Assembly (NCBI GenBank): GCA_947446925.1
Contig: CANFHU010000005.1
Span: 1 to 64,000 of the forward strand
Direction of reading: 5' to 3'
DNA: 64,000 nucleotides
Source of the DNA: Flavobacteriia bacterium
Lineage (GTDB): Bacteria; Bacteroidota; Bacteroidia; Flavobacteriales_D; Crocinitomicaceae
Shown here: positions 28,419 through 54,089 of the stretch, in pieces
Layout of the letters: each line of letters opens with the position of its first letter
How positions within the stretch are numbered: position 1 is the first letter of the stretch
Made by a program: the position numbers and the translations under genes
The notes under the pieces: model-generated
Told to the model about the DNA's origin: nothing
Database searches by the model: none
The model's input: the letters and a program-made list of their open reading frames with translations, nothing else

Positions 28419-28421
28419 AAT

Positions 28422-28784: not shown

Positions 28785-28802
28785 CACTTCGACATGCTCA
28801 GT
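28785..28802. repeat. Bacteroidota-type short interspersed repeat
   Basis: CACTTCGACATGCTCAGT, related to TTTCGACAAGCTCAGGGT at 49.86, 50.0 and 50.1 kb. The remainder of the 28,725-28,918 gap holds nothing recognisable. Confidence 0.6.
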
Positions 28803-28918
28803 CTAAACATCGAGTGAAACTTAAAATATCTTCAAATTTGAAAATTGCTATCTAGCATTTAAAACTATTAGTTGTTATTTTATTTCTTTTCGCCAATAAT
28901 TGATAACTTTTTATGAAA

Positions 28919-30183: not shown

Positions 30184-30296
30184 ACACGTGTGAATACGCA
30201 ATAAAATACGTGTACACACGTATTGTTACACGTGTATATACACGTTATTAGTACGTGTAAATACACGTTATATATGCGTGTGATTAATACGTGTAT
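30184..30296. promoter_or_regulatory. RCGTGT/ACACGY array 2
   Basis: Units include ATACGTGT-AC-ACACGTAT, ACACGTGTATATACACGT and ACGTGTA-AA-TACACGT: perfect arms with 2-base centres, about 18 bases long, separated by 5-15 bases. The array lies upstream of the membrane-protein start at 30109. Confidence 0.65.
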
Positions 30297-36670: not shown

Positions 36671-36682
36671 GGTAAACAGATT

Positions 36683-38263
36683 TTAATTATTCAAAGTAGT
36701 TTCGATTTGTAATTTTTTTAGCTGGTGACGAATAAAACGCTTCGCTCTAGGTGAATTGAGAGGATAACTTTTATTCTTCTTTGGTTCATGATCCATACTA
36801 TAAAAACATAGTTTCTGATATTCATTATTAACATCGAAACCTCTTTCGGCTCTCATATATACAATCTTAGAATCTTCAATAAAAACGACAACAAGTCCAT
36901 ATTTTTTCGAATTGTATACTCTTTTTTCACTTTCATTAAAATAAGAAATGACTACTCCTACTTTATCCTTATGAAAGGATATTTTTTTTTCCAATTCTCC
37001 ATCTGGATAATAAAAATACCAATTGCCTTCTTTCTTTCCATTTTTAAATGTCCCTTCTATTGCTTTACGGCCATTCTCGTAATAATATACCCAAGAACCA
37101 TCTTGAGGAAAGATGATCTGCTCCGGATGATCAAAATTAATTTCGTAACATTTGATGATTAGTTTCTTGTTTAAATCCTTCGAAAAATCAAGCGAACAAA
37201 TTTCCCAAAGCCCAGCTATTTGCCTATTTCTGATTTTTCCGATTCCAAATGGAATTGAATCTTTACTTATAATAAGTAATGAGTCTATTTCACCCCAAGT
37301 GATTTTGAAATCAACATCTTCTGGTAAATGATTTAGATTCTTAGTACGAATGACACTATCGATTAAATAATAAGGGTGCTCATTTTGAGTAAAAGACAGA
37401 TTTTTAAGAAGAAAATAATTTTCAGCATAATTTGGAAAATAAGGTAAACATTCCATCGTAAATTTTTCAATTTTCAATTCTCTATGTAAAACTATCCGAT
37501 GATCAAAAATGGAATGAGAAAACAAATCAGAATTATATTCCTTAAGTACTTTTATATTTTCAAAGTTCTTAATATCTAATAAAGGATCATAATCAACTAT
37601 TTCAAGTTGTTTGAAAGCATTGATCAATTCGATATACTTTCTACCTCTTTTCAATGATTCCCTTGAATAACCTGTTATTTTAAACTCTTTTAAGATTTTA
37701 CTATTTAGCAATTGAGAATAATTGGGCCATTTTTTTATGTCTACTTTCGAACAATAGGTTGGATTTATACCAACTCTTTTAAGTGTTAATCTTATCCCGA
37801 TACAATTATTAGTACTTAAGTGATTGAATATCTTCATCTTACTTAAATTACTTTTTCGTTGTTTATCATCGATAACAGTTAGTTCCCAAATGACATTTTT
37901 TTGATTTTTAAGGTAAAATTTATGATCTCGGGGGATACTGTGAATTGAAGGGAGGGGGTATAACACACTCCCGGAATGATCATACAATGTATCACACTCA
38001 GGATGAGTATTGTAAAAATAAAAATCATTCTTCAGCGAATCAAAATAAACACTCTTATGGTGATTATGCATGTTGACGAAAAAACTGATATGCACATTCG
38101 AAATTATGTCTGATTCATCATAATAGCCAAATGCTTTATCATCCTGTAATGTTTTATATTCTAAGACCAATGTTTTCGTTGTATCAAAATCAAGATCAGG
38201 AACTTGAGAATGTAAATCCATGGCCCAAATAAATAGTAAAAAGAAAAAAAGTTTCGTTACCAT
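36683..38263 (-). CDS. Secreted protein with MORN-like repeats
   Basis: 526 residues. A signal peptide (MVTKLFFFLLFIWAMDLHSQ) directs export. Residues about 385-435 hold two MORN/YwqK-type units ('GSWVYYYENGRKAIEGTF', 'GKKEGNWYFYYPDGELEK'). The remainder is unassigned. Its start overlaps the end of the 893-residue gene by 7 bases, so it belongs to the same operon. A secreted partner or protective protein for the large proteins is possible, but I have no direct evidence. Confidence 0.75.
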   Translation of the reverse strand: MVTKLFFFLLFIWAMDLHSQVPDLDFDTTKTLVLEYKTLQDDKAFGYYDESDIISNVHISFFVNMHNHHKSVYFDSLKNDFYFYNTHPECDTLYDHSGSVLYPLPSIHSIPRDHKFYLKNQKNVIWELTVIDDKQRKSNLSKMKIFNHLSTNNCIGIRLTLKRVGINPTYCSKVDIKKWPNYSQLLNSKILKEFKITGYSRESLKRGRKYIELINAFKQLEIVDYDPLLDIKNFENIKVLKEYNSDLFSHSIFDHRIVLHRELKIEKFTMECLPYFPNYAENYFLLKNLSFTQNEHPYYLIDSVIRTKNLNHLPEDVDFKITWGEIDSLLIISKDSIPFGIGKIRNRQIAGLWEICSLDFSKDLNKKLIIKCYEINFDHPEQIIFPQDGSWVYYYENGRKAIEGTFKNGKKEGNWYFYYPDGELEKKISFHKDKVGVVISYFNESEKRVYNSKKYGLVVVFIEDSKIVYMRAERGFDVNNEYQKLCFYSMDHEPKKNKSYPLNSPRAKRFIRHQLKKLQIETTLNN

Positions 38264-40938
38264 CTTTTTAAATATTCGTATTCATTTCTATTTATATCTA
38301 CCGCTAAATTTGTTGGAGATAATTCACCAACAAAATCATTACAAACTATTGTAGAAGGATCACCTACACTTCCTACACCATTAACATTGAACCAGGTATC
38401 TAATTGGTGCTTTATGTATGTTTTTTCATCAGCAGTATACCGAGTAGAAAAATCATTTTCAAGTAAAAAAATCATCTTTCTAACAATCCCTTCCAAGAGA
38501 CCAAATGTTCGGAGCATCGCTAATACTTGATTATTCGATCCACTTCCCTTTTTTGAGTTAAAAAAAGTCAATTTATCCCCTGAATAATGTGTGTCTAAAT
38601 TTGATTTATCTGGACTTACAAATGAATTTATTTCCAACGAAATTGAATATGCTCTATCAGAAACAATTCCTGGGATTGAAGTCAATGTTGTGTCAATATT
38701 TATGATCGCATAACTATACCGCAACATTTTATACATTTTTTTCTTGTCGGCCGGTATACTTGATGGTTCATCAATCGTTCCCGATCCGGTATATTTTTGC
38801 TTATAGCTGGTATCCGGACCTACCCTTGGAGAAATTCCGCTGATTAACTTGCCTACAAAACCTCCTGTTAAGACAGGAGGTTTAAGAGTTGTAGTGGGTG
38901 AAGATTTAATAAAATCCTGTTTCAGGAGATCAAAAATAAATTGGATGGTATTTTTATCTGAACTTTTGGAAAATAAGTTTTTGTATGAATTTTTATTGAT
39001 TGATGGAACATTGCTTGAAGAAGCATTGGGAGATTCAAATGTAGTATTGTCACCAAGTTGGAAAGTATTGTTTTCATATGTTACATCTGCATTGAATAAT
39101 TTCGGACGGGGAAATTCATCTTCAAAAACGGTAAGTAAAACTTGAAATTCTTCTATGTTCTCATCGGTTCCACCTGACTTAATTTTAGCATTCAAAGTAC
39201 TTAACGGAGGAAAAGAATAATTCGAAATTTCTTCTTCTGTGAACTGACTAAAGACAAGATCTCTTTTTTGTTTAAAATATTCAGCAACTTTCACATTTTG
39301 CTCTACCCCATCGATTATAATTTTTTTATAATAACTTGTACTTTCCGAAACGCTGTCATTGAGTAAAAAAAAGTTGGCGGATGACGATGGTATGGGCGAG
39401 GCTTCAATCGAATTATTTACTAATGCGCTCATTGTGGTATGTGGAAAAACGTCAAACTTAAAAGTAAGTCCGTCTTTTTCAATCTCTATATTACTTGGAA
39501 TTTCTCCATCAATTCCTGTTGCCAATAGATGGACGATATTTTTTTTAACATTGTTGATGACGCTAAATCCAGATACTTGGTTTTCTGTTAAAGGAAGACA
39601 ATCTGAATTTAAATTATATTTAAAAAACGGAACCCCTAAACACTCCACTCCAAATAAAGAAGATGTCTTCGCTCCCTGACCCGCTGCAAAAATAGTACTG
39701 GAGGAGGGAGTAGTAATATCAGACAATAAAATTCCTTTCATCAATTCAGATTCAAAATCGATAGCAGCTTGAATTTCCGCTTGAATTTGATCATACACCT
39801 CATGAATATCAGCCTTTAATTGAGCTTCTTTGATTAAATCAGTTCCAGGATGTTTATTGTACTGTTTAACAACAGGTATAGGTGATTCTTTAGGTGATGG
39901 AACTGGAAATGATGAAATTATTGGAGCTGTTGCTGGACTTCTTGCAATAGTTTTATACAATGGATTTTGGACTCCGTTTCTCATCACTTTCGCAAGATCG
40001 AATATAAATCTGTTAAAATTGTCGTTAAAATCCCATGCTACTGGAGCACCTAAATCAATATCTATTTTATTTTTCATACAAATAGCTATAGTAGCTGATG
40101 AATATGCGATCGCGTCTGTACTATTAATCATATTCTTTACCGGATCGAACAACATCGTAAAAAAGGTCATGTTCAACTGAGCATTTTTTGTCACATCAGA
40201 AGTGTCAGAAGGTAACGGTAAAGCTGAGGTATTAAAATTTTGGGTTGTAAGAGCTGAAAGCAAAGAATTAAAAAAATAGGGAAGATCGTCAGGGTTTTTA
40301 TTGAATGAATTAACATTTGTCGGATCAAGCATATTGTTCATTCTTGTAACAAAGTTTATAGGATATTTAGCTTTAATAAACGAAAATTTATCACCGATAA
40401 GGTTGGCATCAAAATCCCAGATGTAATCATTCAACAAAGCCATCCTTTTTATAAGGTAAAAATAGGCAAACAAAATCATCGTTTCATGAAATGAACCCAA
40501 GGACGTTTCACCTGCAACAATAGCAGCCTTGATTTCACTTTTAATCAATTCCGCATCCCCTGCCGGTCTCAAGCCGGGTAATTTATTTCCGACTGTAGCA
40601 TCAGGTGTATAAATTAATTCAGACCCTAAAGCCACCCTCGTAAATATCTCTATTCCAGAATCATTCATTGGAATTCCTGTTACAGGATTCATATTAACAA
40701 AAAATTTAAGCACTAAATGGCACAAATTATCATGAGGAAACTCCCTACCATTAATTTGTCTATCATTTCCAAAATACATTAAAAAAATAAACTCCTGAAA
40801 AGCTTCTTTCCTTTTGCTATGTTTTGGATTCGAAAGGAAATCAAACCATGTATTGAGCTCAGTATAATCATCACCGTTTGGAGAACTCCCTTCAAAATCT
40901 GGAGGAGACACTGTGTTTTTATTCTGAAAAAAGGCCAT
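38257..40938 (-). CDS. Large protein of 893 residues, unknown
   Basis: Soluble, no signal peptide, Ser/Thr/Asn/Pro-rich in the middle ('SPATAPIISSFPVPSPKESP'). The N-terminal third is helical ('HETMILFAYFYLIKRMALLN'), and the C-terminus ends in 'DINRNEYEYLKRW'. No domain is recognised. It lies 7 bases after the 663-residue gene and overlaps the next by 7, so the proteins are made together and may form one complex or secreted machine. Confidence 0.7.
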   Translation of the reverse strand: MAFFQNKNTVSPPDFEGSSPNGDDYTELNTWFDFLSNPKHSKRKEAFQEFIFLMYFGNDRQINGREFPHDNLCHLVLKFFVNMNPVTGIPMNDSGIEIFTRVALGSELIYTPDATVGNKLPGLRPAGDAELIKSEIKAAIVAGETSLGSFHETMILFAYFYLIKRMALLNDYIWDFDANLIGDKFSFIKAKYPINFVTRMNNMLDPTNVNSFNKNPDDLPYFFNSLLSALTTQNFNTSALPLPSDTSDVTKNAQLNMTFFTMLFDPVKNMINSTDAIAYSSATIAICMKNKIDIDLGAPVAWDFNDNFNRFIFDLAKVMRNGVQNPLYKTIARSPATAPIISSFPVPSPKESPIPVVKQYNKHPGTDLIKEAQLKADIHEVYDQIQAEIQAAIDFESELMKGILLSDITTPSSSTIFAAGQGAKTSSLFGVECLGVPFFKYNLNSDCLPLTENQVSGFSVINNVKKNIVHLLATGIDGEIPSNIEIEKDGLTFKFDVFPHTTMSALVNNSIEASPIPSSSANFFLLNDSVSESTSYYKKIIIDGVEQNVKVAEYFKQKRDLVFSQFTEEEISNYSFPPLSTLNAKIKSGGTDENIEEFQVLLTVFEDEFPRPKLFNADVTYENNTFQLGDNTTFESPNASSSNVPSINKNSYKNLFSKSSDKNTIQFIFDLLKQDFIKSSPTTTLKPPVLTGGFVGKLISGISPRVGPDTSYKQKYTGSGTIDEPSSIPADKKKMYKMLRYSYAIINIDTTLTSIPGIVSDRAYSISLEINSFVSPDKSNLDTHYSGDKLTFFNSKKGSGSNNQVLAMLRTFGLLEGIVRKMIFLLENDFSTRYTADEKTYIKHQLDTWFNVNGVGSVGDPSTIVCNDFVGELSPTNLAVDINRNEYEYLKRW

Positions 40939-40945
40939 AATTCAT

Positions 40946-42937
40946 TTATTTTAGATCGTTAGTGTAATAATTAAAGATATCTATTCCAATTTCAAATTGC
41001 TGAATTTCAATACCATCAACTTGGTTACGAACAAACCCAGAAAGCGCTAAACTATATCGAATGTATTTTTTTTCTTGATTATCTAGTTCTTTTGAGATTT
41101 GACTTACCGTCAAATACGGAGGAAATTTAGAATCGAAGTTTTGAGTTGCTAGTGATATAATGGATTGAAAATCTGCATTCGATAATATGACAGCAAAAAA
41201 ATCAGTATTTAAATTTATTTTATTTCGAGTGAAATTTACTTTCCTTCTTTTTTGTTTTACTAGTTTAATCTCATCGTTACTAACTAATATCTTATCTTGC
41301 AAAAGATGATCAGGATTACTGATACTTTCAATATACTTTGTGAAATACTGAAAATCTTTATTTGTACTATTTGTGATGGACAGAAATGGAGAATCTTTTT
41401 TAAATCGTTTCTTCGACTTTCTTTTTGATAAATTCCAAAATAAAACGGTATTAAAATTATCTTTAGCAATCCCAACATCACTTAAATAATCAATTTTCAA
41501 GTCATTTAACAAGTTTATATAACGGTATTCATGATAAATTTTGATCTTGATTGGATCATCATTTTCAAAGGGAATCCTTAGTTTTGTAGGTTGAAAAACA
41601 TAATCTAATGATGTTGTCAGATTAGGATTTAAAACACCAAGATCATTGACTTCATTGTTCAACGTATGTATAAAGATTTTCATTTTAATGAATTGTCCTA
41701 CAGCAATCGATTGATCAACTACTGGTATTTTTACAGAAATGTAATTTGTACTGTAACTCGAATCTATATCATTTGTTAATTCTAAAAAACTATTCTTTTC
41801 CCCTTTAACTTTCTCAATTAATGAAATGAAACGATTACCTGTCAAAAGAGCTATAAAGTAACTGACGTCAATTTTAACTGGAAATGAAATATTTACATAT
41901 AATTCATTTTCTGATACTTGAGGATTTTCAAATATTAAAATTGGCCAACCGGAATTATAATAATTGATTTCTACAGTAGGCTCAATACGATCACTACTAA
42001 CCAATGCCATTAAATTATTATCCAAATTCTCCAATAGATTAAAAGAATAATTCAAGTCATTCCTGATATCAATATAAATTCTATTTCGATTATAAAAAAT
42101 ATGTTTATCAGATCCATTTATTAGTGTCGAATACAACTCGTCTCCGCTTACTTTACTGAATGAATGAATGTTATTATCATCCGTTTCATCATTTGAATTC
42201 CTATATTTTGTTTTTTGTTCAAACCTGTTCGTATATAAAGCACAAGGATCCATAAAGTGTAATACTGTTTCCTTTAACATTCTTGATTCAAATAAGTCAG
42301 CATCTGATGGTGAGTCCTGAATATCAACACTAAAAATTGTAACTAATTTACGTGCAGTATCAAATGTTGGTTCAAATCCAAGAGTATCAAATATTATTTC
42401 AATACCTATTTTATCCTTATCAAACGTTCCTAAACTCCAACCTCCGCCAACATTCCATAAATCGTATCCATCTTTTGAAGTGTAAAAAGCATTATCTATA
42501 AAATCATTATCTGTAAAGTTTGTGCCAATCAAATCAATTCCTAATACTTTTTGAGAAGTCGTCGGATTACTGGCTAAAATATGCTTTGTCAACGTATTAT
42601 TACCGTCTATAACATTCACTCCATCAGTTAAACTATTTTTTAATATCCCTTTGTAGATGAAATATTTTATTCTAGGGTTATTCAATTCAGACTGATCCTC
42701 AGGCTTTAAAATAATATTCACTAAATTTTGATCATCAATGGACTGTTGAACAAGAATAATTCCTTTACATACAGCATAGGCCAACGGATTAGAACTTGCA
42801 GAATGAAGCGATGTCAATCTATATTTTTCTTTACCTGATTCAAATTGAAAATCTGTGACCTGAATTGGTCCATAAGCTTGATCAGCAGTTTGTGAATTCA
42901 ACAAATCAACATCCGTAAAAAAGAAAAAATCCGCCAT
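40946..42937 (-). CDS. Large-protein family member (paralogue of the 54.3-58 kb pair)
   Basis: 663 residues from ATG 42937 (MADFFFFTDVDLL). The in-frame start at 43036 would add 33 residues with no counterpart in the paralogue. It aligns along its length with the products at 54269 and 55167: 'NIILKPEDQ...IKYFIYKGILKN' against 'NVIIKPIES...IKYYVFRGIEKN', 'VLHFMDPCALY' against 'ILSFIDPAAFF', and 'RIYIDIRNDLNYSFNLL' against 'RVYLDVRSELGYSYNFY'. The family is unknown to me. It heads the operon whose promoter region contains array 3. Confidence 0.75.
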   Translation of the reverse strand: MADFFFFTDVDLLNSQTADQAYGPIQVTDFQFESGKEKYRLTSLHSASSNPLAYAVCKGIILVQQSIDDQNLVNIILKPEDQSELNNPRIKYFIYKGILKNSLTDGVNVIDGNNTLTKHILASNPTTSQKVLGIDLIGTNFTDNDFIDNAFYTSKDGYDLWNVGGGWSLGTFDKDKIGIEIIFDTLGFEPTFDTARKLVTIFSVDIQDSPSDADLFESRMLKETVLHFMDPCALYTNRFEQKTKYRNSNDETDDNNIHSFSKVSGDELYSTLINGSDKHIFYNRNRIYIDIRNDLNYSFNLLENLDNNLMALVSSDRIEPTVEINYYNSGWPILIFENPQVSENELYVNISFPVKIDVSYFIALLTGNRFISLIEKVKGEKNSFLELTNDIDSSYSTNYISVKIPVVDQSIAVGQFIKMKIFIHTLNNEVNDLGVLNPNLTTSLDYVFQPTKLRIPFENDDPIKIKIYHEYRYINLLNDLKIDYLSDVGIAKDNFNTVLFWNLSKRKSKKRFKKDSPFLSITNSTNKDFQYFTKYIESISNPDHLLQDKILVSNDEIKLVKQKRRKVNFTRNKINLNTDFFAVILSNADFQSIISLATQNFDSKFPPYLTVSQISKELDNQEKKYIRYSLALSGFVRNQVDGIEIQQFEIGIDIFNYYTNDLK

Positions 42938-43084
42938 AGTACTTTTAGTTTGATTCAAAACTCCCCACCAAATCAAAAACGAACAATTATTTTTTTTCGT
43001 ATTTATTTCAATTAAAAAGGAGTCTATTATTTCCAACTGGAAAACTACAAATTAAAATGTTAAGTGGTTGTTAGTGAGTACTAA

Positions 43085-43183
43085 ATGCGTATAGATACGC
43101 AGTCAGATGCGTGTAAATACGTGTTTGATTTGCGTGTAGTTGCACGTGTTTTACACGTGTGAATACGCATTTTGTATGCGTGC
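43085..43183. promoter_or_regulatory. RCGTGT/ACACGY array 3
   Basis: TGCGTAT-AG-ATACGCA, GCGTGTAAATACGTGT, TGCACGTGTTTTACACGTGT and ATACGCAT...ATGCGTGC. It lies about 150 bases upstream of the chosen start of the large-protein operon (42937). Confidence 0.65.
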
Positions 43184-43195
43184 AAAAATATCGTT

Positions 43196-43591
43196 TTAGC
43201 TGTTTTTTTTAGTTAGATACTCACTTAAGTAATGTAAAGTGGAATTACCAATTTTTGATGAAGAATCTTGAGTGTATTGACTTTCAATAAATAATTTTAA
43301 TTCATTATTTGATTGAATGTTGTTTTTCTTTAGATAATTTTGGATGCGTGTAGGAAATTGAGCGTAAAAAGTATGTACGGTAGGGATGTTTTTGGGGAGA
43401 AATTCTTCTAATTGTTTTAATGAGTTTTCGCTAAGCTGGTTAGGGCAATTGGATCGCAGCTTTTTTAAATCCTGTTTTATTGCGAAATTTATTAAATCTT
43501 CTTTTGAATAAATATGATGTTTGAGTAAAACAGTTCGTTGTCTTGTGGAGAGGGATTGAAGAAAAACGTTATCTGAAAGTTTTGGTTGCAT
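43196..43591 (-). CDS. Protein with two helix-hairpin-helix (alpha-CTD-like) units
   Basis: 131 residues. 'LSTRQRTVLLKHHIYSKEDL' followed by 'LRSN...SENSLKQLEEFLP' has the pattern of the RNA polymerase alpha C-terminal domain. A second, weaker copy follows ('FPTRIQNYLKKNNIQSNNEL'). Such HhH units bind DNA or transcription factors, so a small transcription accessory protein is possible. The assignment is by pattern only. It is divergent from the XRE regulator at 43726 across an AT-rich repeat. Confidence 0.55.
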   Translation of the reverse strand: MQPKLSDNVFLQSLSTRQRTVLLKHHIYSKEDLINFAIKQDLKKLRSNCPNQLSENSLKQLEEFLPKNIPTVHTFYAQFPTRIQNYLKKNNIQSNNELKLFIESQYTQDSSSKIGNSTLHYLSEYLTKKNS

Positions 43592-43593
43592 TT

Positions 43594-43693
43594 AGTAGTA
43601 TAACTGAATTAAAATAATGTAAAACTAAATAAATTCAAATTTAAGTAAAATTTAATAAAGTAAAAGTAAAATTTGAACAAGTTAAACTAAACA
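43594..43693. repeat. AT-rich iterated motif between divergent genes
   Basis: AGTAAAATT-type units recur (GTAAAACT, AGTAAAATTT, AGTAAAAGTAAAATTT, AGTTAAACT). It is a candidate operator for the adjacent XRE protein. Confidence 0.45.
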
Positions 43694-43725
43694 TGGAAAA
43701 ACTCGAATGACTTTATTTTTGTTTT

Positions 43726-44073
43726 ATGAAAGTTAAGTTGGGAGAACGCATTCGTAAGGCGAGAACAATAAGAGGTCTGAGTCAACAAAATATGGCAGAT
43801 GATTTAGAATTATCCGTTGCTTCCTATTCAAATATTGAACGTGGTATCACGGATATTAATGTGAGTCGATTAATTGAAATCTCTCACATTCTTAAAATAG
43901 ATGTTTCTGAACTTTTAAAGGAAGGCGAAGATAAAAAAGCGTTACATGATGAGGCGCTTCCATATTTATCTCCCGAAATTTCTGGTGTATATAAAATGCT
44001 TGAAAAGCAACAAAGCGAAATTGAATCTTTAAAGCACATCGTGCAAGAACTGATTGCTAAAAATTCAAAATAG
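43726..44073 (+). CDS. XRE-family regulator with C-terminal coiled coil
   Basis: 115 residues. The HTH is at about residues 5-60 ('GERIRKARTIRGLSQQNMAD', 'SVASYSNIERGITDINVSR'). The last 40 residues ('MLEKQQSEIESLKHIVQELI') form a coiled coil that would dimerise it. A TATTTTTG (-7-like) element ends 4 bases before the ATG, so the transcript may be nearly leaderless. It probably regulates itself and the divergent 131-residue gene. Confidence 0.85.
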   Translation: MKVKLGERIRKARTIRGLSQQNMADDLELSVASYSNIERGITDINVSRLIEISHILKIDVSELLKEGEDKKALHDEALPYLSPEISGVYKMLEKQQSEIESLKHIVQELIAKNSK

Positions 44074-44091
44074 TCTAACTTTCTTTAACAT

Positions 44092-44733
44092 TTAATCAAT
44101 TAGTTTATGTTTTTGCGCATACAAAATAACGGTTTGTGTTGAGTGTGTATTTGTTTTTTTATATAGTCTCTTTTTATGCCCTTCGACTGTACGTTTACTT
44201 AGAAATAATTCGTCTGCGATTTTTTGATTCGTTAGTCCTTTTGCAATTAGATCAATTATTTCCAATTCTCTTTCTGTTAAACCATCTTTATTTTCGTGAA
44301 ATTTTTTAGAAGCATAGGTTGAAAACATAATTGCGTTCACTTCTCTTGAAAAATAGGGTTTATCGTCTAAAGCGTGTTCGATGGCATTCAATAATTCGTC
44401 ATGATCTGAAATTTTTAAAATATATCCTTTCGCACCGAGATCCATGGTTTGTTTGATGATTTGCGCTTCGTCATGCATGGATTGAATGATAATTGGTGTT
44501 TTGTTTTTTGACTGTTTCAAACTTTTTAACACATCGATACCGCCCATTTTTCGCATAGATATGTCTAAAATTAATACATCGAAGTTATTTTCTTTAATTT
44601 TTGAAAGCGCTTCTTCTCCATTGGAGGCCTCTGTAATCTGAAAATTGTAACTCGATTGATTTTCAAGCATTAACCGTACGCCATTACGGATCATTGGATG
44701 GTCATCAGTTACAAGTAATTTTACATTTTTCAT
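44092..44733 (-). CDS. NarL/FixJ-family response regulator paired with the 44765 kinase
   Basis: 213 residues. The receiver has Asp10/Asp11 and phospho-acceptor Asp57 in 'VLILDISMRKMGG', then a LuxR HTH ('LTERELEIIDLIAKGLTNQK', 'KRTVEGHKKRLYKKT'). It follows the kinase gene by 31 bases and is the last gene of the 48857-44092 run. It is a close paralogue of the orphan regulator at 25081. NarL-type dimers usually bind short inverted repeats, which fits the RCGTGT arrays upstream of several local genes; the link is inferred. Confidence 0.9.
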   Translation of the reverse strand: MKNVKLLVTDDHPMIRNGVRLMLENQSSYNFQITEASNGEEALSKIKENNFDVLILDISMRKMGGIDVLKSLKQSKNKTPIIIQSMHDEAQIIKQTMDLGAKGYILKISDHDELLNAIEHALDDKPYFSREVNAIMFSTYASKKFHENKDGLTERELEIIDLIAKGLTNQKIADELFLSKRTVEGHKKRLYKKTNTHSTQTVILYAQKHKLID

Positions 44734-44764
44734 GTGTTCAAATTTAGGATAAGGTTAAAATATA

Positions 44765-46054
44765 CTAATAGGAGATATAAAATTCTAAGTGCGTTCCTTT
44801 GTTTATAACAGAATTATAGGTATAATCAGTGTTTAAAATCTTTAATCGATGGTAAATATTTGCTAATCCATTTCCGTTTAAGGTACTTGTGTTTTTTAAA
44901 TCGAATCCGATTCCATTATCGGCTAAGGTTATTTTAAATTGTTTCCTCGCTTTGTTTTTCCGAACAACAATAGTTACTAATGATGCAGAAGCATGTTTAA
45001 AGGTATTATTTAAAAATTCTTGAATAACGCGATACACAAAAAGTTCCTCTTGCTTATTCTTCAATTTAATTTCTTTGTCAACACAATTTAAAGCTATGTT
45101 CAATGAAGAATTGGACATCACCTCAATTAAACGAACGATTGCTGCACGAAGATTTAGTTTAGTTAATAAAGTAGGTTTTAAGTTAAACGATATATCTTTC
45201 ACCGTTTGTACAGCATTTCGTATAATCTCATCCAAATTAATCATTACTTCTTGGTATCTTTCAGAGGAAGGGTTCGTGTTTTGAATAGAATTTATATTCA
45301 TTTTGAGTGAGCTCAATTCCTGCCCAATAGAATCATGAATTTCCAACGCTAAGCGTTTTCGTTCCATTTCTTGACCATTGTACGTAGCGCTTAATATTCG
45401 CACTTCTTCTTCTTTTTGACTCGTAATGTCTTTTCCAATAATCAATATTTGTTTTTTTCCCTCAAAACTAATTTTAAAAAGTTTATAGTGGAGGTAGGTA
45501 AGTTTCTCATCATTTAAGTTCCAGCTATAATTAAACTCATACTTATTAAGTGTTCCAGATTTAAAAAGGGTGATTTGATTAATAAAATCAATTGGTAAGA
45601 TTTCAAGAATGGAATTTAGATTTTCTGAATTTCCTTGTTTATAAAATTCATTTGCCGGATGGTTTATATAACGAATTTCATCCTTGTGATCAAAAACGAT
45701 GATATGATGGGCAATAGTATTAAATATTAATTCAAAATTATCTCTTGTGACCACATTATATTCTAATTCTTCAATGTAGGTGTTAAATCCATAACTAATG
45801 ATTGCAAATTCTTCCTTATGGTATTTAACTGGGAACTTTGAGAAAAAATCATTTTGAATGCAATGGTGAAGGTGTTCTGTAAACAAATCTAAATCATCAT
45901 TCGTTTCTTGTAATTTTGTTTCTATTCTTAAAACTTCCTCTAATACAGTATCTAATCCATTATTTGATAGTTGAGTAATAGAGTCAGATTGAAGTATTCG
46001 AATTCGCTTTAAACTCTCAAAAATTAAATCAATTTTATCCAATTCTACCTTCAT
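44765..46054 (-). CDS. HisKA_3 sensor histidine kinase with PAS domain
   Basis: 429 residues, no membrane span, so a cytoplasmic sensor. The N-terminal 100 residues are helical. A PAS fold covers about 105-215 ('FNTIAHHIIVFDHKDEIRYI' to 'GKDITSQKEEE'). The dimerisation/phospho-acceptor helix reads 'ERKRLALEIHDSIGQELSSL' with the His near 240. The ATPase domain shows the N box, 'LADNGIGFD' and 'NGNGLANIYHRL'. Its start overlaps the end of the 134-residue gene by 20 bases. It is expected to phosphorylate the regulator at 44092 and perhaps the one at 25081. Confidence 0.9.
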   Translation of the reverse strand: MKVELDKIDLIFESLKRIRILQSDSITQLSNNGLDTVLEEVLRIETKLQETNDDLDLFTEHLHHCIQNDFFSKFPVKYHKEEFAIISYGFNTYIEELEYNVVTRDNFELIFNTIAHHIIVFDHKDEIRYINHPANEFYKQGNSENLNSILEILPIDFINQITLFKSGTLNKYEFNYSWNLNDEKLTYLHYKLFKISFEGKKQILIIGKDITSQKEEEVRILSATYNGQEMERKRLALEIHDSIGQELSSLKMNINSIQNTNPSSERYQEVMINLDEIIRNAVQTVKDISFNLKPTLLTKLNLRAAIVRLIEVMSNSSLNIALNCVDKEIKLKNKQEELFVYRVIQEFLNNTFKHASASLVTIVVRKNKARKQFKITLADNGIGFDLKNTSTLNGNGLANIYHRLKILNTDYTYNSVINKGTHLEFYISY

Positions 46055-46439
46055 TTAACTCGTTTTTTTGTTTGATTCTATTCAACCATTCAACAGCATC
46101 TTCTTTTTCTATGAATAATTTAAAAGGAATCTTTGGGTTTTTTAAACTAATAAAAATATTTATTATAAAAGACTGTATTCGAGATTTGACAATAGCAGCA
46201 GAAGCGAACAGATAATCCTGTCCTTCTTTTGCTGCATGTTCTCTACATTCTTTAGACATAGATAATACATTCGTAAAATCATAACACCAATATTGTTTTT
46301 TAAAATCAGAAGCAATATGTCTTTGGTCTATTAATTTTTGACCTAATGTAGTGTCCAGATGAATAGGCTCTAAAAATTGGCTATATAGTATTCCTTCTTC
46401 CATCCAAAATTTAAAGATTTTATTATCTGTCTCTGTCAT
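46035..46439 (-). CDS. STAS/SpoIIAA-like (DUF7793-type) protein
   Basis: 134 residues. 'YWCYDFTNVLSMSKECREHA' and the C-terminal 'IPFKLFIEKEDAVEWL' follow the pattern of small SpoIIAA/STAS-like proteins common in flavobacteria. They often sit beside histidine kinases and are assumed to bind partners. It lies 6 bases after the synthase gene and overlaps the kinase gene, which suggests a modulator in this signalling operon. Family naming is by eye. Confidence 0.65.
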   Translation of the reverse strand: MTETDNKIFKFWMEEGILYSQFLEPIHLDTTLGQKLIDQRHIASDFKKQYWCYDFTNVLSMSKECREHAAKEGQDYLFASAAIVKSRIQSFIINIFISLKNPKIPFKLFIEKEDAVEWLNRIKQKNELNEGRIG

Positions 46440-46445
46440 AAATAA

Positions 46446-48857
46446 TTAATTATTAAAAATGTTTTCGATTAATTCGAGATTATATGTGTCATCAAATTTA
46501 AGAAAAGCATTCTTTTTTATCGTATTTGCACCATATTTTTGTTTTTCATAATCCGCAGAAAGACCACAAAATACCTTAGATTTATTAAGCATATTTGCTC
46601 TTTTTACGGTCTGAAAAATGATTTGTTTGTATATTTGATATTTATCTTGGAATTTATAATTTAAACCTGCAATTAGCGGTGAATATGAATTCTCACCTTT
46701 AAATGACCATCCACAACCAACAATTTCTTTGGTTTCTTTAAAGCAAATTTCAATAAATTCCCAATCTTTATATTTACTTAGTATAGCAGGAGTTTTTTCT
46801 GGATAGGTAAAGAAATTAAATGCGAAATTCTTGTTTTTTACATTTTTAAAAAGCGCGTAATATAAAGCAGCTTTTTCAGGTGTAATTTCGTCTAAATAAT
46901 TGATTTCAAAGTATTTTTCTTTTTTTATAGCAGAGTTTTTGATGTGATCTTTACGTTTTTTACTGTCAATTAAGTTCAATAATTCATCGTATGTTTCCCA
47001 TTTAGGGTTTTCAATAATGTTTGTATTTGGCATTTCTAGTTTTGTATAACCCTCATTTTCCAATACCTCTGCGATTGGATCTTTTTCTTCAAAGTCTCGG
47101 ATTACTATGACCTTTGCATCTATGGATTGTTTGATATTGTCTACTTCAACAAACATGTTATTCAACGCTTCTTTCCATTGTTTATGCCCTTTGTTGAGAT
47201 ATAGAAATTCACCTTCTGCAAATAAAGAACCCATTGCTAAAGTTTTAGAGCACAAATAGTAAGGGTCATTTTTACGAATTTCTTCAATTTTTTTCGATTT
47301 ATTTTCCAATGCTAACATATCATCTTTGTAGATTGCACCAGTAAAGAAAGTAGCTAAAATCAATTCATCTTGTTCGTCTTTTACTAGCAAATAATGAAAA
47401 CTCCAATTTTCTTCTAGTTTTTCATTTCCAGAAAATATTTCCTCCATACATTGCATACCAGAATGGTTAAAATTACCTTTATTTACCATTACTTTATCCC
47501 AAAGTTGTGCATCGATATCCTGAATCGTTGTGTAAACTTCCGTTTTTAAACTTATATCTGAAGTTTTAATTATTTTTTTCGTTTCTTTTAGATTCAAAGG
47601 AATATTAAATACATCATACACGCGTTGTCTATCATCCCCTTCTTCTTCGATTGCTAATGGAAGGTGGTAAGCTAATGCATCTGCTAAAAGTTGTACATCA
47701 TTCATAGTATTGTGTCTTGTTAAAGTAAAACGCAAACCTGACTTATCGTTCGGAACCACCGGAAAAGTTGCAGTATTTACGTAGATACCTTCTCCTAAAA
47801 TACGGTTTACCAAGTTGTGCGTTACTTTACTGCTTCCGGCTCCAATAAAGTAAATAGGTGCATCTGGCGAAGAAGTATTTGTAATGTTTTTTTCCACTAA
47901 TAGGCGATTCATGTAGTCCATCAATCCACGTAATTCCGCTTGGTATTCATAAATTTCAGGCGAAAGATGTAATTTGGCAGATGCAATCGCAGAACCAACA
48001 TTTGCTGGCGTAAGTGGATGTGTATAGGTTAAGATTCCACCATAAGTGTCAATTTTTCTATATGTTTCCGTATTTGCGAAAATCGCTGTACCACCAACAC
48101 AACCAAACCCTTTGGCTAACGTTGAAATTAGAATGATACGATCGCTCACCCCTAATTTTTCAAAAATATTACCAGCACCATTTGTACCTCCCCAACCCAT
48201 ACCATGAGCATCGTCGAAATATAAGTGAAGTTTAGGGTATTTATTCATCAATTCTTTTAATCTATCCGTATTTGGGATATCTCCATGCATGGAATAAACA
48301 CCATCCGCCATGTACCAAATTCGGGTAAACTTGTTACTTTCTTCCTTCAGCATATCTTCCAATAGGTCATAGTTGGAATGTCGCACCATCTTCACTTCAG
48401 TTCCTTGTAGTTTTGCAAACTTGCAAGGATATTGTACACTATAATGCACTTGTTGATCCAAAATAATTAAATCATCTGGTTTGATTAAAGTACCAATTAC
48501 CGATAAATGTGCAGTAGAAGTAGAGGTATATACAATTGCTTTATTTCCTTGAAATATTTGCGAAATCAATTCTTCCAATTCTTGAATGTATGGAGGTCGA
48601 ACATACGCACGCGACATAGATAATTGCGTACCAAACCTTTTGAGTAAGTCCGTTGCGCCTTCGATTAAAGCTGGGTGTTTTTCTAAACCTAAATATCCAC
48701 ACGTTCCGAAGTTCACGTAACGTTTTTCATTGATATCAAAAAAGGTACCATCAAAAAATGTTTCTTGAGAGTTTAAGTGCATGATACCTTTTTCTTTTGC
48801 AGTTGTCCAAATATGATCAACGGTATCTAAAAAGTTGTTGTGATTAATTTTTGCCAT
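46446..48857 (-). CDS. Alpha-oxoamine synthase (aminotransferase fold) fused to a GNAT/BioF2-like domain
   Basis: 803 residues. The first 400 are a PLP enzyme of the KBL/BioF/SPT/CqsA class: 'NFGTCGYLGLEKHPALIEGA', 'YTSTSTAHLSVIG', 'YFDDAHGMGWGG', and the Schiff-base Lys249 in 'ISTLAKGFGCVGG'. Such enzymes condense an amino acid with an acyl-CoA. The C-terminal 400 residues look like a BioF2/FemAB-type acyltransferase ('KETKEIVGCGWSFKGE'). It is first in an operon with a STAS-like protein, a kinase and a regulator. CqsA and LqsA are signal synthases of the same fold encoded beside kinases, so a signal synthase is plausible; a lipid or cofactor enzyme is the alternative. Confidence 0.85.
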   Translation of the reverse strand: MAKINHNNFLDTVDHIWTTAKEKGIMHLNSQETFFDGTFFDINEKRYVNFGTCGYLGLEKHPALIEGATDLLKRFGTQLSMSRAYVRPPYIQELEELISQIFQGNKAIVYTSTSTAHLSVIGTLIKPDDLIILDQQVHYSVQYPCKFAKLQGTEVKMVRHSNYDLLEDMLKEESNKFTRIWYMADGVYSMHGDIPNTDRLKELMNKYPKLHLYFDDAHGMGWGGTNGAGNIFEKLGVSDRIILISTLAKGFGCVGGTAIFANTETYRKIDTYGGILTYTHPLTPANVGSAIASAKLHLSPEIYEYQAELRGLMDYMNRLLVEKNITNTSSPDAPIYFIGAGSSKVTHNLVNRILGEGIYVNTATFPVVPNDKSGLRFTLTRHNTMNDVQLLADALAYHLPLAIEEEGDDRQRVYDVFNIPLNLKETKKIIKTSDISLKTEVYTTIQDIDAQLWDKVMVNKGNFNHSGMQCMEEIFSGNEKLEENWSFHYLLVKDEQDELILATFFTGAIYKDDMLALENKSKKIEEIRKNDPYYLCSKTLAMGSLFAEGEFLYLNKGHKQWKEALNNMFVEVDNIKQSIDAKVIVIRDFEEKDPIAEVLENEGYTKLEMPNTNIIENPKWETYDELLNLIDSKKRKDHIKNSAIKKEKYFEINYLDEITPEKAALYYALFKNVKNKNFAFNFFTYPEKTPAILSKYKDWEFIEICFKETKEIVGCGWSFKGENSYSPLIAGLNYKFQDKYQIYKQIIFQTVKRANMLNKSKVFCGLSADYEKQKYGANTIKKNAFLKFDDTYNLELIENIFNN

Positions 48858-48936: not shown

Positions 48937-49068
48937 ATGCGTGTGAACACGTGTAAGAACAACGTGTAATCACACGTATATATAGCGTGTGTTTACACTT
49001 GTTTTTAGCGTGTATTTATGCTTTATCATAGCGTGTAAATACACGTGTATTATACGTGTTTACACTTG
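48937..49068. promoter_or_regulatory. RCGTGT/ACACGY array 4 (divergent promoter region)
   Basis: ATGCGTGTGAACACGTGT, ACGTGTAATCACACGT, GCGTGTGTTTACACTTG, GCGTGTAAATACACGTGT and TACGTGTTTACACTTG. It lies between the synthase operon (start 48857, minus) and the amidase (start 49135, plus), so it can serve both. Confidence 0.65.
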
Positions 49069-49134: not shown

Positions 49135-49782
49135 ATGCCTGCTAAATTAGATACTAGTAAGATTCTTCAAGTAAAATTTCCTGAGACCCAATATTACAAA
49201 GAAGAACACCCAAAAAATCAAGTGGTGATACACCATACGGTGAGTGGTTCTAATCCGACAAATGTTATAAACGCCTGGATTACCAATACAGAACGTGTTG
49301 CTACCGCATTTGTAATAGGGGGAGATGGAACGATTGCCCAAGCATTTAGTAGTAAACACTGGGCACATCATTTGGGTTTAAAGAAACCGAACAATACGCT
49401 ATTAAATCAACAATCTGTAGGTATCGAAGTGTGTAACTGGGGTGGTATCACCGAAAAAGACGGTAAATTTTATACAGCATATAATAAGGAAATAAGCAAA
49501 GACTTAATCATCGATTACGGAAAAACGTGGAGGGGATATCGTTATTTTCATAAATATACAGCTGTTCAGATTGAATCCTTACGACAATTGTTGGTTTATT
49601 TATGTGATACTTATAAGATTTCAAAGGAATACCACCCAACGATGTGGGATTTGAACGAGGAGGCGCTGTCGGGGAAGAGTGGAGTGTTTACGCATGTGTC
49701 GTATAGGGCTGATAAGAGTGATATGCACCCGCAAGTGGAGTTGGTAGAGATGTTGAAGTGGTTGAAGGGGTTGGGGGAGTGA
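49135..49782 (+). CDS. N-acetylmuramoyl-L-alanine amidase (amidase_2)
   Basis: 215 residues, zinc amidase fold. 'VVIHHTVSGSNP' gives the first zinc His (33/34), 'VATAFVIGGDGTIAQAF' is the conserved core, 'QSVGIEVCNW' the Glu strand, and 'FTHVSYRADKSDMHPQVE' the second His and the usual K/D-x-P segment. It cleaves the stem peptide from peptidoglycan. There is no signal peptide, so it needs another export route or lysis to reach its substrate, as with phage endolysins and secreted effectors. It is divergent from the synthase operon across array 4. Confidence 0.9.
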   Translation: MPAKLDTSKILQVKFPETQYYKEEHPKNQVVIHHTVSGSNPTNVINAWITNTERVATAFVIGGDGTIAQAFSSKHWAHHLGLKKPNNTLLNQQSVGIEVCNWGGITEKDGKFYTAYNKEISKDLIIDYGKTWRGYRYFHKYTAVQIESLRQLLVYLCDTYKISKEYHPTMWDLNEEALSGKSGVFTHVSYRADKSDMHPQVELVEMLKWLKGLGE

Positions 49783-50185
49783 CGAGTGACGAAAGTTAAG
49801 AGTGACGGAAGGGTGGGATGAAAGCTAAACTATTGGATCCTTGAAATGAGAGAACATTCTTTCGACAAGCTCAGGGTGAGTTGAGTGACGGAAGTTAAGA
49901 GTGACGGAAGTGACGAAGTGACGAAGAGACGTCCCGAAAGCTTTCGGGAGACGGAAGGGTGGGGTGAAAGCTAAACTATTGGAACCTAGAAATGAGAGAG
50001 CATTCTTTCGACAAGCTCAGGGTTAACTATGCTCAAGGTAAACTAAGAGGAGAGCGACTGAAAGGGTGGGGTGAAAGGTAAACTATTTGAACCTAGAAAT
50101 GAGAGAACATTCTTTTGATATGTTCAGGGTGAGCTGAGTGACGAAGAGACGTCTTGAAAGCTTTCGGGAGACGGAAGGTGTTGAT
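49783..50185 (+). repeat. Imperfect direct repeats with a palindrome
   Basis: Three copies of a roughly 60-base unit (GGGTGGGATGAAAGCTAAAC ... GAGAACATTC ... AAGCTCAGGGT) lie near 49.81, 49.96 and 50.07 kb, separated by GTGACGAAG-type motifs. CCCGAAAGCTTTCGGG at about 49,935 is a perfect palindrome, echoed at 50,158. The 49,783-50,277 gap has no gene. Confidence 0.75.
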
Positions 50186-51797: not shown

Positions 51798-53225
51798 ATG
51801 ACATTTGACAGAGACATTGAAGCTTTTATAAAAAACTATGTGAAAGCACTAAAAGAAAAAAATGCAGTTGTATTTGCAGGTGCTGGCATGTCTGTTTCAC
51901 AAGGTTTTTTTGACTGGAAGAAACTTCTCAAACCAATTGCAGACAAACTTGGATTAGACATTGAAGAGGAACAACATGACTTGACAGCTTTAGCACAATT
52001 CTTTGTTGATGACCATGGCGGTGTTAGAGGTGAACTAGACCAAATTCTTGTTGAGGAATATGGAAAATCAAATCTTGAAGCTTCCGAAAATCACAGGATT
52101 TTGGCAAGACTTCCGATTCAAATTTACTGGACAACAAATTATGACAGATTAATTGAAAAGGCACTTTTAGAAGAAGGCAAAACTCCAGACATCAAAAAAG
52201 CACAATCAGATTTAACTGTAAATCTTCCAAAGAGAGATGCAATAATTTATAAAATGCACGGGGATATAGAAACAGTTTCCGAGACAGTTTTAACTAAGCA
52301 TGAATATGAAGACTATAACAAAAAAAGAGAGCTGTTTAGTAATGCTTTTAAAAGTGATTATGTCTCAAGAACCTTTCTTTTTATAGGCTTTAGCTTTACA
52401 GACCCAAATCTCGACTATCTGATTAGCAGAATTAGAACAACACTTGGGCAAAATATTAAACCTGATTATTACTTCATTAAAAAGGAAAGTATCTTAAGAA
52501 ATCAAAGAAGACAAGAATTACGAGCAAATTCCTTGAAAAAGTACGGACTGAATCCATTATGGATAAGCGACTATTCAGAGATAACTTTGATTTTAAAAGA
52601 AATAGAATCTAGGTTATTAAGAACGACAATTTTAATTTCAGGAAGTGCAGAAGAATATGGAAGTTTCGAAGAATTAAGGGCAACTGAACTTTTGCATGAT
52701 TTAAGTAGGACATTGTCAAAAAACTCGTATAAAATTTTGACTGGGTTTGGCTGGGGTGTTGGCAGTGCCGTTATTAATGGAGTTCTAGAAAATATGGAAA
52801 CTGAAAGAAATCAAAATATGGATAATTATCTAATTATGCGTCCATTTCCTCAGTTTGAAACAAAAGGAAAAAATCTAAAAGAGCTTTGGACCGAATACAG
52901 AAATAGATTTATCCCGTTAGCAGGAGTTGCTATTTACGTATTCGGAAATAGGAAAAATAAAACTACTGGTGTAATTGAAGAAGCTACTGGAGTAATTGAT
53001 GAGTTTGAGATTGCAGTAAAAAATGGTTTACTTGTAATCCCAATAGGAGCAACAGGTTTTGTTTCAAAAACTTTGTGGGACAAAGTAATTAGTTCCTTCG
53101 ACCAATTCTATCCAAATCACAGTTTTCTCTTGGAAGACTTTAAAACCATAGGAGACCAAACAGTTGAAAATTCTAAAATCATCGAAGCTACTTTAAACAT
53201 TATAAACAATCTAAATTCAAAATAA
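51798..53225 (+). CDS. thsA: Thoeris ThsA: SIR2 NADase with SLOG sensor domain
   Basis: 475 residues, the usual ThsA length. The N-terminal SIR2 domain (about 1-275) shows 'VFAGAGMSVSQGFFDWKKL', 'IYWTTNYDRLIEKAL', 'IIYKMHGDIE' (catalytic His) and 'FLFIGFSFTDPNLDYLI'. The C-terminal SLOG domain (about 280-475) shows 'TTILISGSAEEYGSF', 'KILTGFGWGVGSAVINGV' and 'GLLVIPIGATGFV'. In Thoeris, TIR proteins make a cyclic ADP-ribose-type signal upon infection; the SLOG domain binds it and the SIR2 domain depletes NAD. Two TIR-like genes follow directly, which makes the assignment secure. Confidence 0.92.
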   Translation: MTFDRDIEAFIKNYVKALKEKNAVVFAGAGMSVSQGFFDWKKLLKPIADKLGLDIEEEQHDLTALAQFFVDDHGGVRGELDQILVEEYGKSNLEASENHRILARLPIQIYWTTNYDRLIEKALLEEGKTPDIKKAQSDLTVNLPKRDAIIYKMHGDIETVSETVLTKHEYEDYNKKRELFSNAFKSDYVSRTFLFIGFSFTDPNLDYLISRIRTTLGQNIKPDYYFIKKESILRNQRRQELRANSLKKYGLNPLWISDYSEITLILKEIESRLLRTTILISGSAEEYGSFEELRATELLHDLSRTLSKNSYKILTGFGWGVGSAVINGVLENMETERNQNMDNYLIMRPFPQFETKGKNLKELWTEYRNRFIPLAGVAIYVFGNRKNKTTGVIEEATGVIDEFEIAVKNGLLVIPIGATGFVSKTLWDKVISSFDQFYPNHSFLLEDFKTIGDQTVENSKIIEATLNIINNLNSK

Positions 53226-53226
53226 C

Positions 53227-53715
53227 ATGGCGACAAAAAGACAAATTTTTTACAGTTTTCATTATGACAATGACGTTTTTCGTGTTCAACAAATTAGAAA
53301 CATGGGAGCATTGGAAGACAATAAACCAGTTTCTTACAATGACTGGGAAACGGTTAAAAAAGGTGGAGACAAAGCAATTGAAAAGTGGATTAACGATAAT
53401 ATGAACTACAGGAGTTGTGTTGTTGTATTAATCGGCACTGACACATATAAAAGGCCTTGGGTAAACCATGAAATTAAAAAGGCTTGGGCAGACGGAAAAG
53501 GCCTTTTGGGAATACATATTAATAATTTGAAAGACCCAAAAACAGGTACTTGTCCGAAAGGAACAAACCCATTTGACCAATTTACTTTTAAAGATAGCAG
53601 AGGCAACATTAAGACAATCCCATGCAAAACACCTTCATCAACAGACGCATATAACGATATTAAAAACAATATAGAAAGTTGGGTTGAAGAAGCAATTAAA
53701 AATAGTAACTCATGA
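53227..53715 (+). CDS. thsB: Thoeris ThsB: TIR-like protein, copy 1
   Basis: 162 residues of the ThsB/DUF1863 TIR-like class: 'QIFYSFHYDNDVFRVQQIRN' at the N-terminus, 'SCVVVLIGTDTYKRPWVNHE' with the conserved Trp and Glu, then 'IKKAWADGKGLLGIHINN'. It is one base after the thsA stop. By family it senses infection and produces the signal nucleotide that activates ThsA. Its stop overlaps the next TIR gene by four bases. Confidence 0.9.
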   Translation: MATKRQIFYSFHYDNDVFRVQQIRNMGALEDNKPVSYNDWETVKKGGDKAIEKWINDNMNYRSCVVVLIGTDTYKRPWVNHEIKKAWADGKGLLGIHINNLKDPKTGTCPKGTNPFDQFTFKDSRGNIKTIPCKTPSSTDAYNDIKNNIESWVEEAIKNSNS

Positions 53716-54089
53716 GTAAATCAATTTTTATTTCCTGCGTTTTTGAAGACAGTCATCATATAGAAACTATAAAAAGTTGGGCTACTGGTAAACGGCTTGG
53801 TGACGTTGTAATTACTCATGAAACAGAAGACAAAAGAATTCTAGGTAAGGAAGCTATCAAACAGCACATTAAATCAAAAATCCAAGGTGCTTCTCTAATA
53901 ATCGTACTTATTGGACAAGACAACCATAATCATGATTGGATAGAATCAGAAGTTGAACTTGCTAATAGTTTTCATAAACAAATCTTATGTGTTCGGTTGC
54001 CACATACGACTGGTGCTGTTCCAGACATTTTAATAAATTATAGTCTAATAAGTTTTGATCCAGAATCTATCACAAGGAGTATTGACTGA
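53712..54089 (+). CDS. Thoeris ThsB: TIR-like protein, copy 2 (short)
   Basis: 125 residues, shorter than copy 1 but with the same fold: 'SIFISCVFEDSHHIETIKSW', 'GASLIIVLIGQDNHNHDWIE' followed by SEVELA (the conserved Trp-x-Glu region), 'KQILCVRLPHTTGAVPDIL'. Multiple divergent ThsB genes beside one ThsA are known and are thought to widen phage recognition. The ATG overlaps the TGA of copy 1. Confidence 0.85.
   Translation: MSKSIFISCVFEDSHHIETIKSWATGKRLGDVVITHETEDKRILGKEAIKQHIKSKIQGASLIIVLIGQDNHNHDWIESEVELANSFHKQILCVRLPHTTGAVPDILINYSLISFDPESITRSID

Follow-up and report, generated by a model that had tools for sequence, protein, structure and literature searches.

Among described systems, the closest signalling loci are CqsA/CqsS and LqsA/LqsS-LqsR, in which a pyridoxal phosphate (PLP)-dependent α-oxoamine synthase is encoded together with its own kinase, in Lqs also with a regulator, and both CqsS and LqsS are six-transmembrane kinases (PMC3376566, cited in part). 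In the comQXPA system of Bacillus, which likewise has a kinase and a response regulator, the synthesis and recognition parts diverge together in strains with near-identical gyrA, comQ being more than 30% divergent among strains with clonal gyrA (excerpts of PMC4408185). A third point of reference is Alb29 of the albogrisin pathway in Streptomyces, which builds aminoketones from L-glutamate and acyl-CoAs (the cited portion of PMC11906848). Here we describe an operon at positions 44,092-48,857 of a 64,000-nucleotide stretch of DNA from a Flavobacteriia bacterium (contig CANFHU010000005.1 of assembly GCA_947446925.1; "the window"). From its sequence, and with a probability that we put at roughly 60%, the operon would encode a cell-signalling module with exchangeable specificity, in which an acyltransferase sets the identity of a product and a small protein of the DUF7793 family reads it.

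The locus differs from Cqs and Lqs in the acyltransferase fused to the synthase, in a STAS-fold partner and in a soluble kinase or an AraC-type output, and its synthase falls far outside the CqsA/LqsA model. With comQXPA, whose signal is a peptide processed by ComQ, it has only the two-component proteins in common. Alb29 is the closest solved synthase by sequence and a sister branch in our tree; unlike the enzyme described here, it is a natural-product enzyme of about 400 residues without the acyltransferase half. We know of no sensing genes that accompany it.

Genes of the Operon

An earlier note on this DNA, made from the sequence alone, had proposed a four-gene operon for a diffusible signal at 44092-48857, and four open reading frames (ORFs) of the minus strand do occupy exactly these coordinates. 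Since only 6 nt separate the synthase and DUF7793 ORFs, the DUF7793 and kinase ORFs overlap by 20 nt, and 31 nt lie between kinase and regulator, the four genes likely form one operon. Its parts are the following.

46446-48857, minus strand: the whole fusion synthase, an ORF of 803 amino acids
47591-48857, minus strand: PLP α-oxoamine synthase half, residues 1 to about 422, with K249 (Pfam, alignment, fold and tree)
46446-47590, minus strand: putative GNAT / FemAB-like acyltransferase half, residues about 423-803, the candidate product-specificity part (model and profile matches)
46035-46439, minus strand: DUF7793 protein (PF25056) of 134 amino acids with a STAS fold, putative receptor or adaptor (Pfam and model)
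44765-46054, minus strand: soluble HisKA_3 sensor kinase of 429 amino acids, phospho-acceptor His240 by motif
44092-44733, minus strand: NarL/LuxR-type response regulator of 213 amino acids (Pfam Response_reg and GerE)
46117-47595, minus strand: exchanged, putative specificity cassette, made up of the acyltransferase half and the N-terminal part of DUF7793 (comparison with locus L028)

Pfam searches matched the synthase to Aminotran_1_2, the next protein to DUF7793, the kinase to HisKA_3 and HATPase_c, and the regulator to Response_reg and GerE, in agreement with the NarL-type regulator named before. The kinase had been described as a cytoplasmic PAS protein. Hydropathy agrees with the location: neither the kinase (largest 19-residue value 1.22) nor the regulator or the DUF7793 protein contains a 19-residue window above 1.6, and all three look cytoplasmic. 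The PAS match itself is weak and stays below the cut-off (16.5 vs 22.9 bits). With no such window, the kinase is not a six-transmembrane protein of the kind that accompanies CqsA or LqsA.

Exchange of a Putative Specificity Cassette between Close Relatives

The acyltransferase half varies among close relatives. L028 belongs to a different species of the same genus, 83-87% identical to the window genome over one 4-kb housekeeping stretch. Between positions 43,000 and 54,500, most 100-bp segments of the two loci are 97-100% identical. Identity is 99.03% at 43037-46129, drops to 66.4% at 46130-47590 and returns to 99.29% at 47591-48857. The mismatches of the cassette run from 46117 to 47595 and thus delimit a sharply bounded segment of 1.48 kb, and there is no amino-acid difference in synthase residues 1-421. 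Exceptions outside the cassette were found at 43200 (91%), 49100 (94%), 49400 (88%) and 49600 (96%) and in a repeat-rich gap at 49700-50000 (21-79%). The acyltransferase of L028 is 89% identical to that of locus L029 and 59% to that of the window, and its PLP half equals that of the window.

DNA profiles were drawn for ten pairs of loci, hand-picked as discrepant or close. Similar mosaics are present in L044/L046 and L108/L111, and the reversed arrangement in L037/L034; L081/L097 have diverged broadly, and L050/L036 show no swap. Over 17 clusters of close relatives, mean identity is 89-94% in the PLP segments, 59% in the linker, 72-82% in the acyltransferase segments and 72% in DUF7793; the N-terminus of the regulator (14 clusters) is at 81%. 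The pattern is that of a pherotype, in that synthesis and putative recognition parts have diverged together inside near-identical flanks, the recognition part being, we infer, DUF7793.

Covariation of the Acyltransferase Half and DUF7793

When the identity of the PLP half was accounted for, acyltransferase identity correlated with DUF7793 identity with r = 0.60 (192 pairs at a PLP identity of 80% or more), or 0.54 with the best-matching DUF7793 copy, and none of 2000 within-cluster permutations reached either value. In divergent loci, DUF7793 adjoins the PLP half. At PLP identity of at least 70%, 63 divergent pairs gave 0.44 for acyltransferase and DUF7793 given PLP (0 of 1000 permutations) and 0.04 for PLP and DUF7793 given acyltransferase (231 of 1000). 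In codirectional loci, the former correlation was 0.49 (0/1000) at the 70% threshold and 0.53 (1/1000) at 80%, where the latter was -0.01 (518/1000).

Neighbouring genes were used as a control for time (15 families, without permutations). The correlation left was 0.19-0.45 in eight divergent and 0.49-0.72 in seven codirectional subsets, and the neighbour genes correlated with the acyltransferase at -0.47 to 0.28. Linkage is a poor explanation, because DUF7793 adjoining the PLP half still tracks the distal acyltransferase; after the divergent-locus and neighbour-gene tests we judged it insufficient as the only cause, subject to the exceptions given in the Discussion.

Conservation of the Module and Its Outputs

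A genome scan retrieved 272 encoding stretches, of which the best 80 (L028-L107) were kept, so the locus counts lean to close relatives; judged by their titles, the 80 appear to come from Bacteroidota. The window itself and 16 loci from relatives were added to give the set analysed, in which 96 loci hold a synthase ORF longer than 600 amino acids. L112 and L113 were dropped as duplicates of L029 and L040, and L117 for having no synthase ORF of that length.

In 94 of the 96 loci, at most 590 bp separate DUF7793 from the synthase (L059 and L068 have no DUF7793), and 20 of the 96 carry at least two DUF7793 ORFs within 3 kb of the synthase. A regulator gene is found on the DUF7793 strand, within 400 bp of DUF7793, in 78/96, and the module is therefore regulatory and not merely metabolic. 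Forty of these regulators match HATPase_c (HisKA in 20, HisKA_3 in 19) and 38 match the AraC-type HTH_18, counts that were taken over the whole set and sum to 78; the same input therefore feeds different outputs. Every gene family other than the synthase, DUF7793 and the regulator is limited to at most 28 of 80 loci.

Of 296 genomes sampled from the phylum, seven have the acyltransferase, all seven with DUF7793, and DUF7793 occurs in 17. The synthase is patchily distributed (20 of 99 genomes). DUF7793-regulator units without a synthase were found at L148, in the window's own genome, and at L157, L159 and L161. L148 (G000:C13, 8719-11410) holds two tandem DUF7793 genes, a 425-amino-acid kinase-like regulator and a NarL-type regulator, with no synthase in the stretch. 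At L163 (6934-9361), the synthase is in two open pieces with one stop inside, and DUF7793 and the regulator are intact, which would make this a signal-mute strain. In one housekeeping stretch, genome G001 matches the window genome at 92% identity, in the synthase at only 41%; the system therefore does not follow the species tree. Divergent loci often also carry MauE, small DUF6520 proteins and an S9 peptidase, from families present in 11-26 of 80 loci (Pfam was run on L164 only), and, as read from sequence, SusC/SusD-like neighbours.

Class of the Synthase and Nature of Its Partners

K249, which the earlier note had picked as the PLP lysine, lies within TLAKGFG and, with D215 and H218, is invariant in 66 aligned sequences (of 81 synthases at hand). 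The PLP lysine, the D-x-x-H motif, the Aminotran_1_2 fold and an Alb29/KBL-like structure (Z up to 44.8; full-length model confident, with a predicted local distance difference test score, pLDDT, of 90.5) place the enzyme in the α-oxoamine synthase superfamily. The narrower assignment to the CqsA/LqsA class did not hold. On the α-hydroxyketone model NF005526, the synthase scores 67.3 bits (64.5 in a second scan) against a cut-off of 428, under three ordinary paralogues of the same genome (KBL, BioF and SPT-like, 160-189 bits). We rejected the class on this score, on the presence of the acyltransferase half and DUF7793 and on the lack of a membrane span in the kinase. By name, no CqsA or LqsA was found among the 60 of 706 plasmid records listed. 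The best-scoring model, the PRK07505 subfamily (NF005697), gave 255 bits, also under its cut-off (342).

Among solved structures, the PLP half is most closely related to Alb29 (E = 2.3e-33); in pairwise comparison with the synthase, Alb29 scores 117 bits and PDB entry 28eh 57.7 bits. A tree of 33 rows was built from 12 references, none of them a CqsA, an LqsA or a proven sulfonolipid enzyme, and 21 of the 97 fusion enzymes; four branches are long and five rows drew composition warnings. The fusion enzymes form one clade (100/99), joined to Alb29 and a Rhizobium enzyme (100/100). The genome's own KBL, BioF and SPT-like enzymes, HemA and plasmid BioF/KBL all lie away from it, so that the synthase is not placed among BioF, KBL, ALAS or SPT-like enzymes. 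A biotin, KBL or SPT-like role was rejected, because separate KBL, BioF and SPT-like enzymes are encoded in the genome and branch elsewhere in the tree; the KBL and BioF labels derive from grouping with annotated KBL and BioF, and the SPT-like label and the bioB beside BioF are sequence readings. Grouping with sulfonolipid or biotin enzymes had been named in advance as the outcome that would speak against a signal synthase; because the tree sets the synthase apart, this outcome was not seen for the biotin and SPT-like enzymes that the tree contained.

The Rhizobium plasmid synthase (L178, L179) shares its branch with Alb29 and has a response-regulator gene directly upstream; unlike the fusion enzymes, it has about 413 residues and no acyltransferase half. 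The DUF7793 profile found no match in the L178 and L179 stretches, where the single-domain synthase directly downstream of the regulator gene is possibly a simpler signalling pair.

The additional C-terminal half that had been noticed from the sequence is real, and matches of its relatives suggest an acyltransferase. Among 48 C-terminal halves aligned (of 81 synthases), 42 match the GNAT profile Acetyltransf_6 (PF13480; best E = 1.5e-9) and 14 match FemAB_like (PF04339), both at E ≤ 1; the window's own copy matches neither. In the model, residues 438-803 look like two mixed α/β units. Sequence and profile searches of this half against solved structures gave no match, and the matches listed by a whole-protein fold search belong to the synthase half. 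The fusion would thus join an aminoketone synthase to a second, acylating active site.

The 134-residue protein scores 98.9 bits on DUF7793 (gathering cut-off 26). Its confident model (pLDDT 89.5) has a STAS fold, as had been supposed: 4xs5 aligns with Z 15.1 and a root-mean-square deviation of 2.1 over 115 residues, and the top Foldseek match is 2q3l (E = 6.7e-5). These SpoIIAA-like/STAS proteins share the fold but only 11-18% identity with DUF7793, and to our knowledge none partners an acyltransferase. The structure 2q3l contains a deep cavity of nonpolar character, and the cited part of PMC2954212 draws a comparison with CRAL-TRIO carriers; DUF7793 itself may bind a ligand. A literature search on DUF7793 found no paper.

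The Phased Promoter Array and the Surrounding Island

Directly upstream of the operon, where the earlier note had placed an array, CGTGT occurs at 48940, 48963, 48986, 49009, 49032 and 49055, exactly 23 bp apart and with ACACG between; two extra copies lie at 48950 and 49044. A pattern scan located four such promoters.

48940-49059, no strand: 23-bp-phased CGTGT/ACACG array in the synthase promoter
43110-43160, no strand: array of three phased copies upstream of the 43,036 operon
30187-30281, no strand: array (22-23 bp) upstream of the operon 30109-25081
24252-24278, no strand: two-copy site upstream of gene 24358-24864 (plus strand)

In the 3.15-Mb genome, CGTGTN{17,18}CGTGT has 18 matches, 13 of them in the window at these four promoters and five scattered singles; the reversed-pattern control has four genome-wide. 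Among 13 synthase promoters, a 5-mer periodicity of 22/23 bp is strongest in the window, L028, L029 and L110 and not in the other nine (no shuffled control was included). The likely targets of the regulator are its own operon and the three other promoters in the same island.

The operon 25081-30109 (minus strand) encodes a membrane protein, an HNH protein, an FRG protein (PADLOC PDC-S15), a Tle1-like phospholipase and a second NarL regulator, and possibly represents signal-controlled antagonism or defence. At 30329-43036 (minus strand), four large proteins of 2113, 526, 893 and 696 amino acids stand under the array promoter of the 43,036 operon. Apart from MORN_2 in the 526-residue protein, Pfam gave no match above cut-off for any of them, and PHROGs gave none at all; the 696-residue protein is only 29% identical in L028. 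Gene 24358-24864, with no Pfam match, is a putative lipoprotein. On the other side, a Thoeris defence system (ThsA and two ThsB-like genes, 51798-54089, plus strand) is 99-100% identical to L028 per 100 bp, vs 83-87% for the housekeeping stretch; the island has therefore probably moved recently.

Discussion

In the signalling module that we favour, the PLP half would, by analogy with its family, condense an amino acid with an acyl thioester to an α-aminoketone, which the acyltransferase half would modify, probably by N-acylation, so fixing the identity of the product. The cytoplasmic, STAS-fold DUF7793 protein would recognise this product and act on the regulator next to it, through the N-terminal sensor region of the latter; the product would presumably serve as a signal, diffuse and bind to DUF7793. 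Here the HisKA_3 kinase would phosphorylate the NarL-type regulator, and the latter would bind the phased array at four promoters, that of its own operon and three nearby. In other species, the place of this kinase is taken by a HisKA kinase (often hybrid) or an AraC-type activator. The acyltransferase half and DUF7793 have been exchanged as one and have diversified in step, as would be expected of a quorum-sensing pherotype. The earlier idea that a signal synthase is encoded next to the genes that sense and regulate, and that the locus regulates itself, thus gains from conservation, swapped outputs and cassette exchange; what it loses is the CqsA/LqsA class.

Several observations weigh against this signalling module. 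In L031/L049, only the end of the acyltransferase was swapped and the nearest DUF7793 copy was not. Regulator bodies diverge fast too (mean identity 75.5% in 14 clusters). At PLP identity of at least 80%, divergent loci give 0.30 (35/1000) for PLP and DUF7793 given acyltransferase, near the 0.37 (0/1000) for acyltransferase and DUF7793 given PLP, and codirectional loci at 70% give 0.25 (20/1000) for the former, with permutations that remove shared ancestry only in part. In one of the eight divergent subsets, a neighbour gene matches DUF7793 (0.28 vs 0.24). DUF7793 is not singled out in divergent loci, because the N-terminus of the regulator co-varies as well (0.44 and 0.70). Specificity seated in the cavity helices of DUF7793 is unsupported, because variation among close relatives is lower, not higher, in α2/α3 (0.17 and 0.22; mean 0.30; structure alignment of 76 of 80 sequences at hand). 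In seven of ten sampled genomes with DUF7793 and no synthase, no regulator lies directly beside DUF7793.

The alternative that survives best, and that we still consider unlikely, is partner switching without a diffusible signal: DUF7793 would bind the acyltransferase, shuttle to the regulator and report the state of the enzyme within one cell. STAS proteins often pair with proteins; SpoIIAA-SpoIIAB, SiaB-SiaC and the acyl carrier protein-bound YchM STAS domain are among our structure matches, and MlaFB is known from the literature. The cytoplasmic look of kinase, regulator and DUF7793 agrees with this, as does a covariation that is stronger with acyltransferase residues 560-803 than with 436-560. 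However, DUF7793-regulator units occur without a synthase, 20/96 loci have at least two DUF7793 ORFs, and exchange of the pair as one block across species is more like recognition groups than interface drift.

Still harder to sustain is a toxic or antibiotic metabolite with a self-protection sensor, that is, a toxin-immunity arms race in which the regulator only tunes production. The locus does stand beside Thoeris, FRG defence-type, Tle1-like and HNH genes, and antagonism loci can also diversify via cassette exchange. But DUF7793 adjoins a transcription-controlling protein in 78/96 loci, and no exporter or resistance gene is generally linked, because no further family exceeds 28 of 80 loci.

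Just as doubtful to us is a pathway for a lipid or other metabolite that comes with its own feedback sensor, where DUF7793 and the kinase would hold the level of a ceramide- or sulfonolipid-like N-acyl aminoketone. Aminoketone synthesis followed by N-acylation is the logic of the sphingolipid and sulfonolipid pathways. A SpoIIAA-like relative has moreover been proposed to carry nonpolar ligands (same excerpt of PMC2954212). Yet the synthase stands apart from the genome's own SPT-like enzyme, and exchangeable specificity inside a shared operon and patchy presence (20/99 genomes) are not expected of a housekeeping lipid. A true CqsA/LqsA α-hydroxyketone system, for which the common superfamily and fold (CqsA 2wk9, Z 37.9) and the joint synthase, kinase and regulator genes would speak, is highly improbable given 67 vs 428 bits, a score under three own paralogues, the extra acyltransferase half and DUF7793, and a kinase without a membrane span.

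Bacteroidota are abundant in guts, soils and water. Our literature search, which covered mainly abstracts and few subscription papers or preprints, found neither a description of such a system nor a dedicated Bacteroidota quorum-sensing system; an autoinducer-synthase paper that names Flavobacterium concerns, in the part seen by the search, a Janthinobacterium synthase. We tentatively propose, at somewhat less than even odds, a new class of quorum sensing across Bacteroidota, with acylated aminoketone signals made by a two-enzyme fusion, a cytoplasmic STAS receptor, a passage of the pair from species to species as a pherotype cassette, and one input that drives either kinases or AraC activators. 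If so, multi-copy DUF7793 loci and orphan DUF7793-kinase units would be listening to the dialects of neighbours.

The cassette and DUF7793 as likely receptor go beyond what the earlier note could see. As a candidate, the module is concrete and widespread: its synthase and likely receptor can be named, its specificity cassette is mapped and its target promoters are predicted. Identification of the signal is directly testable, and natural pairs with matched and mismatched cassettes exist. If the proposal is true, STAS domains would become small-molecule receptors for cell-to-cell signals.

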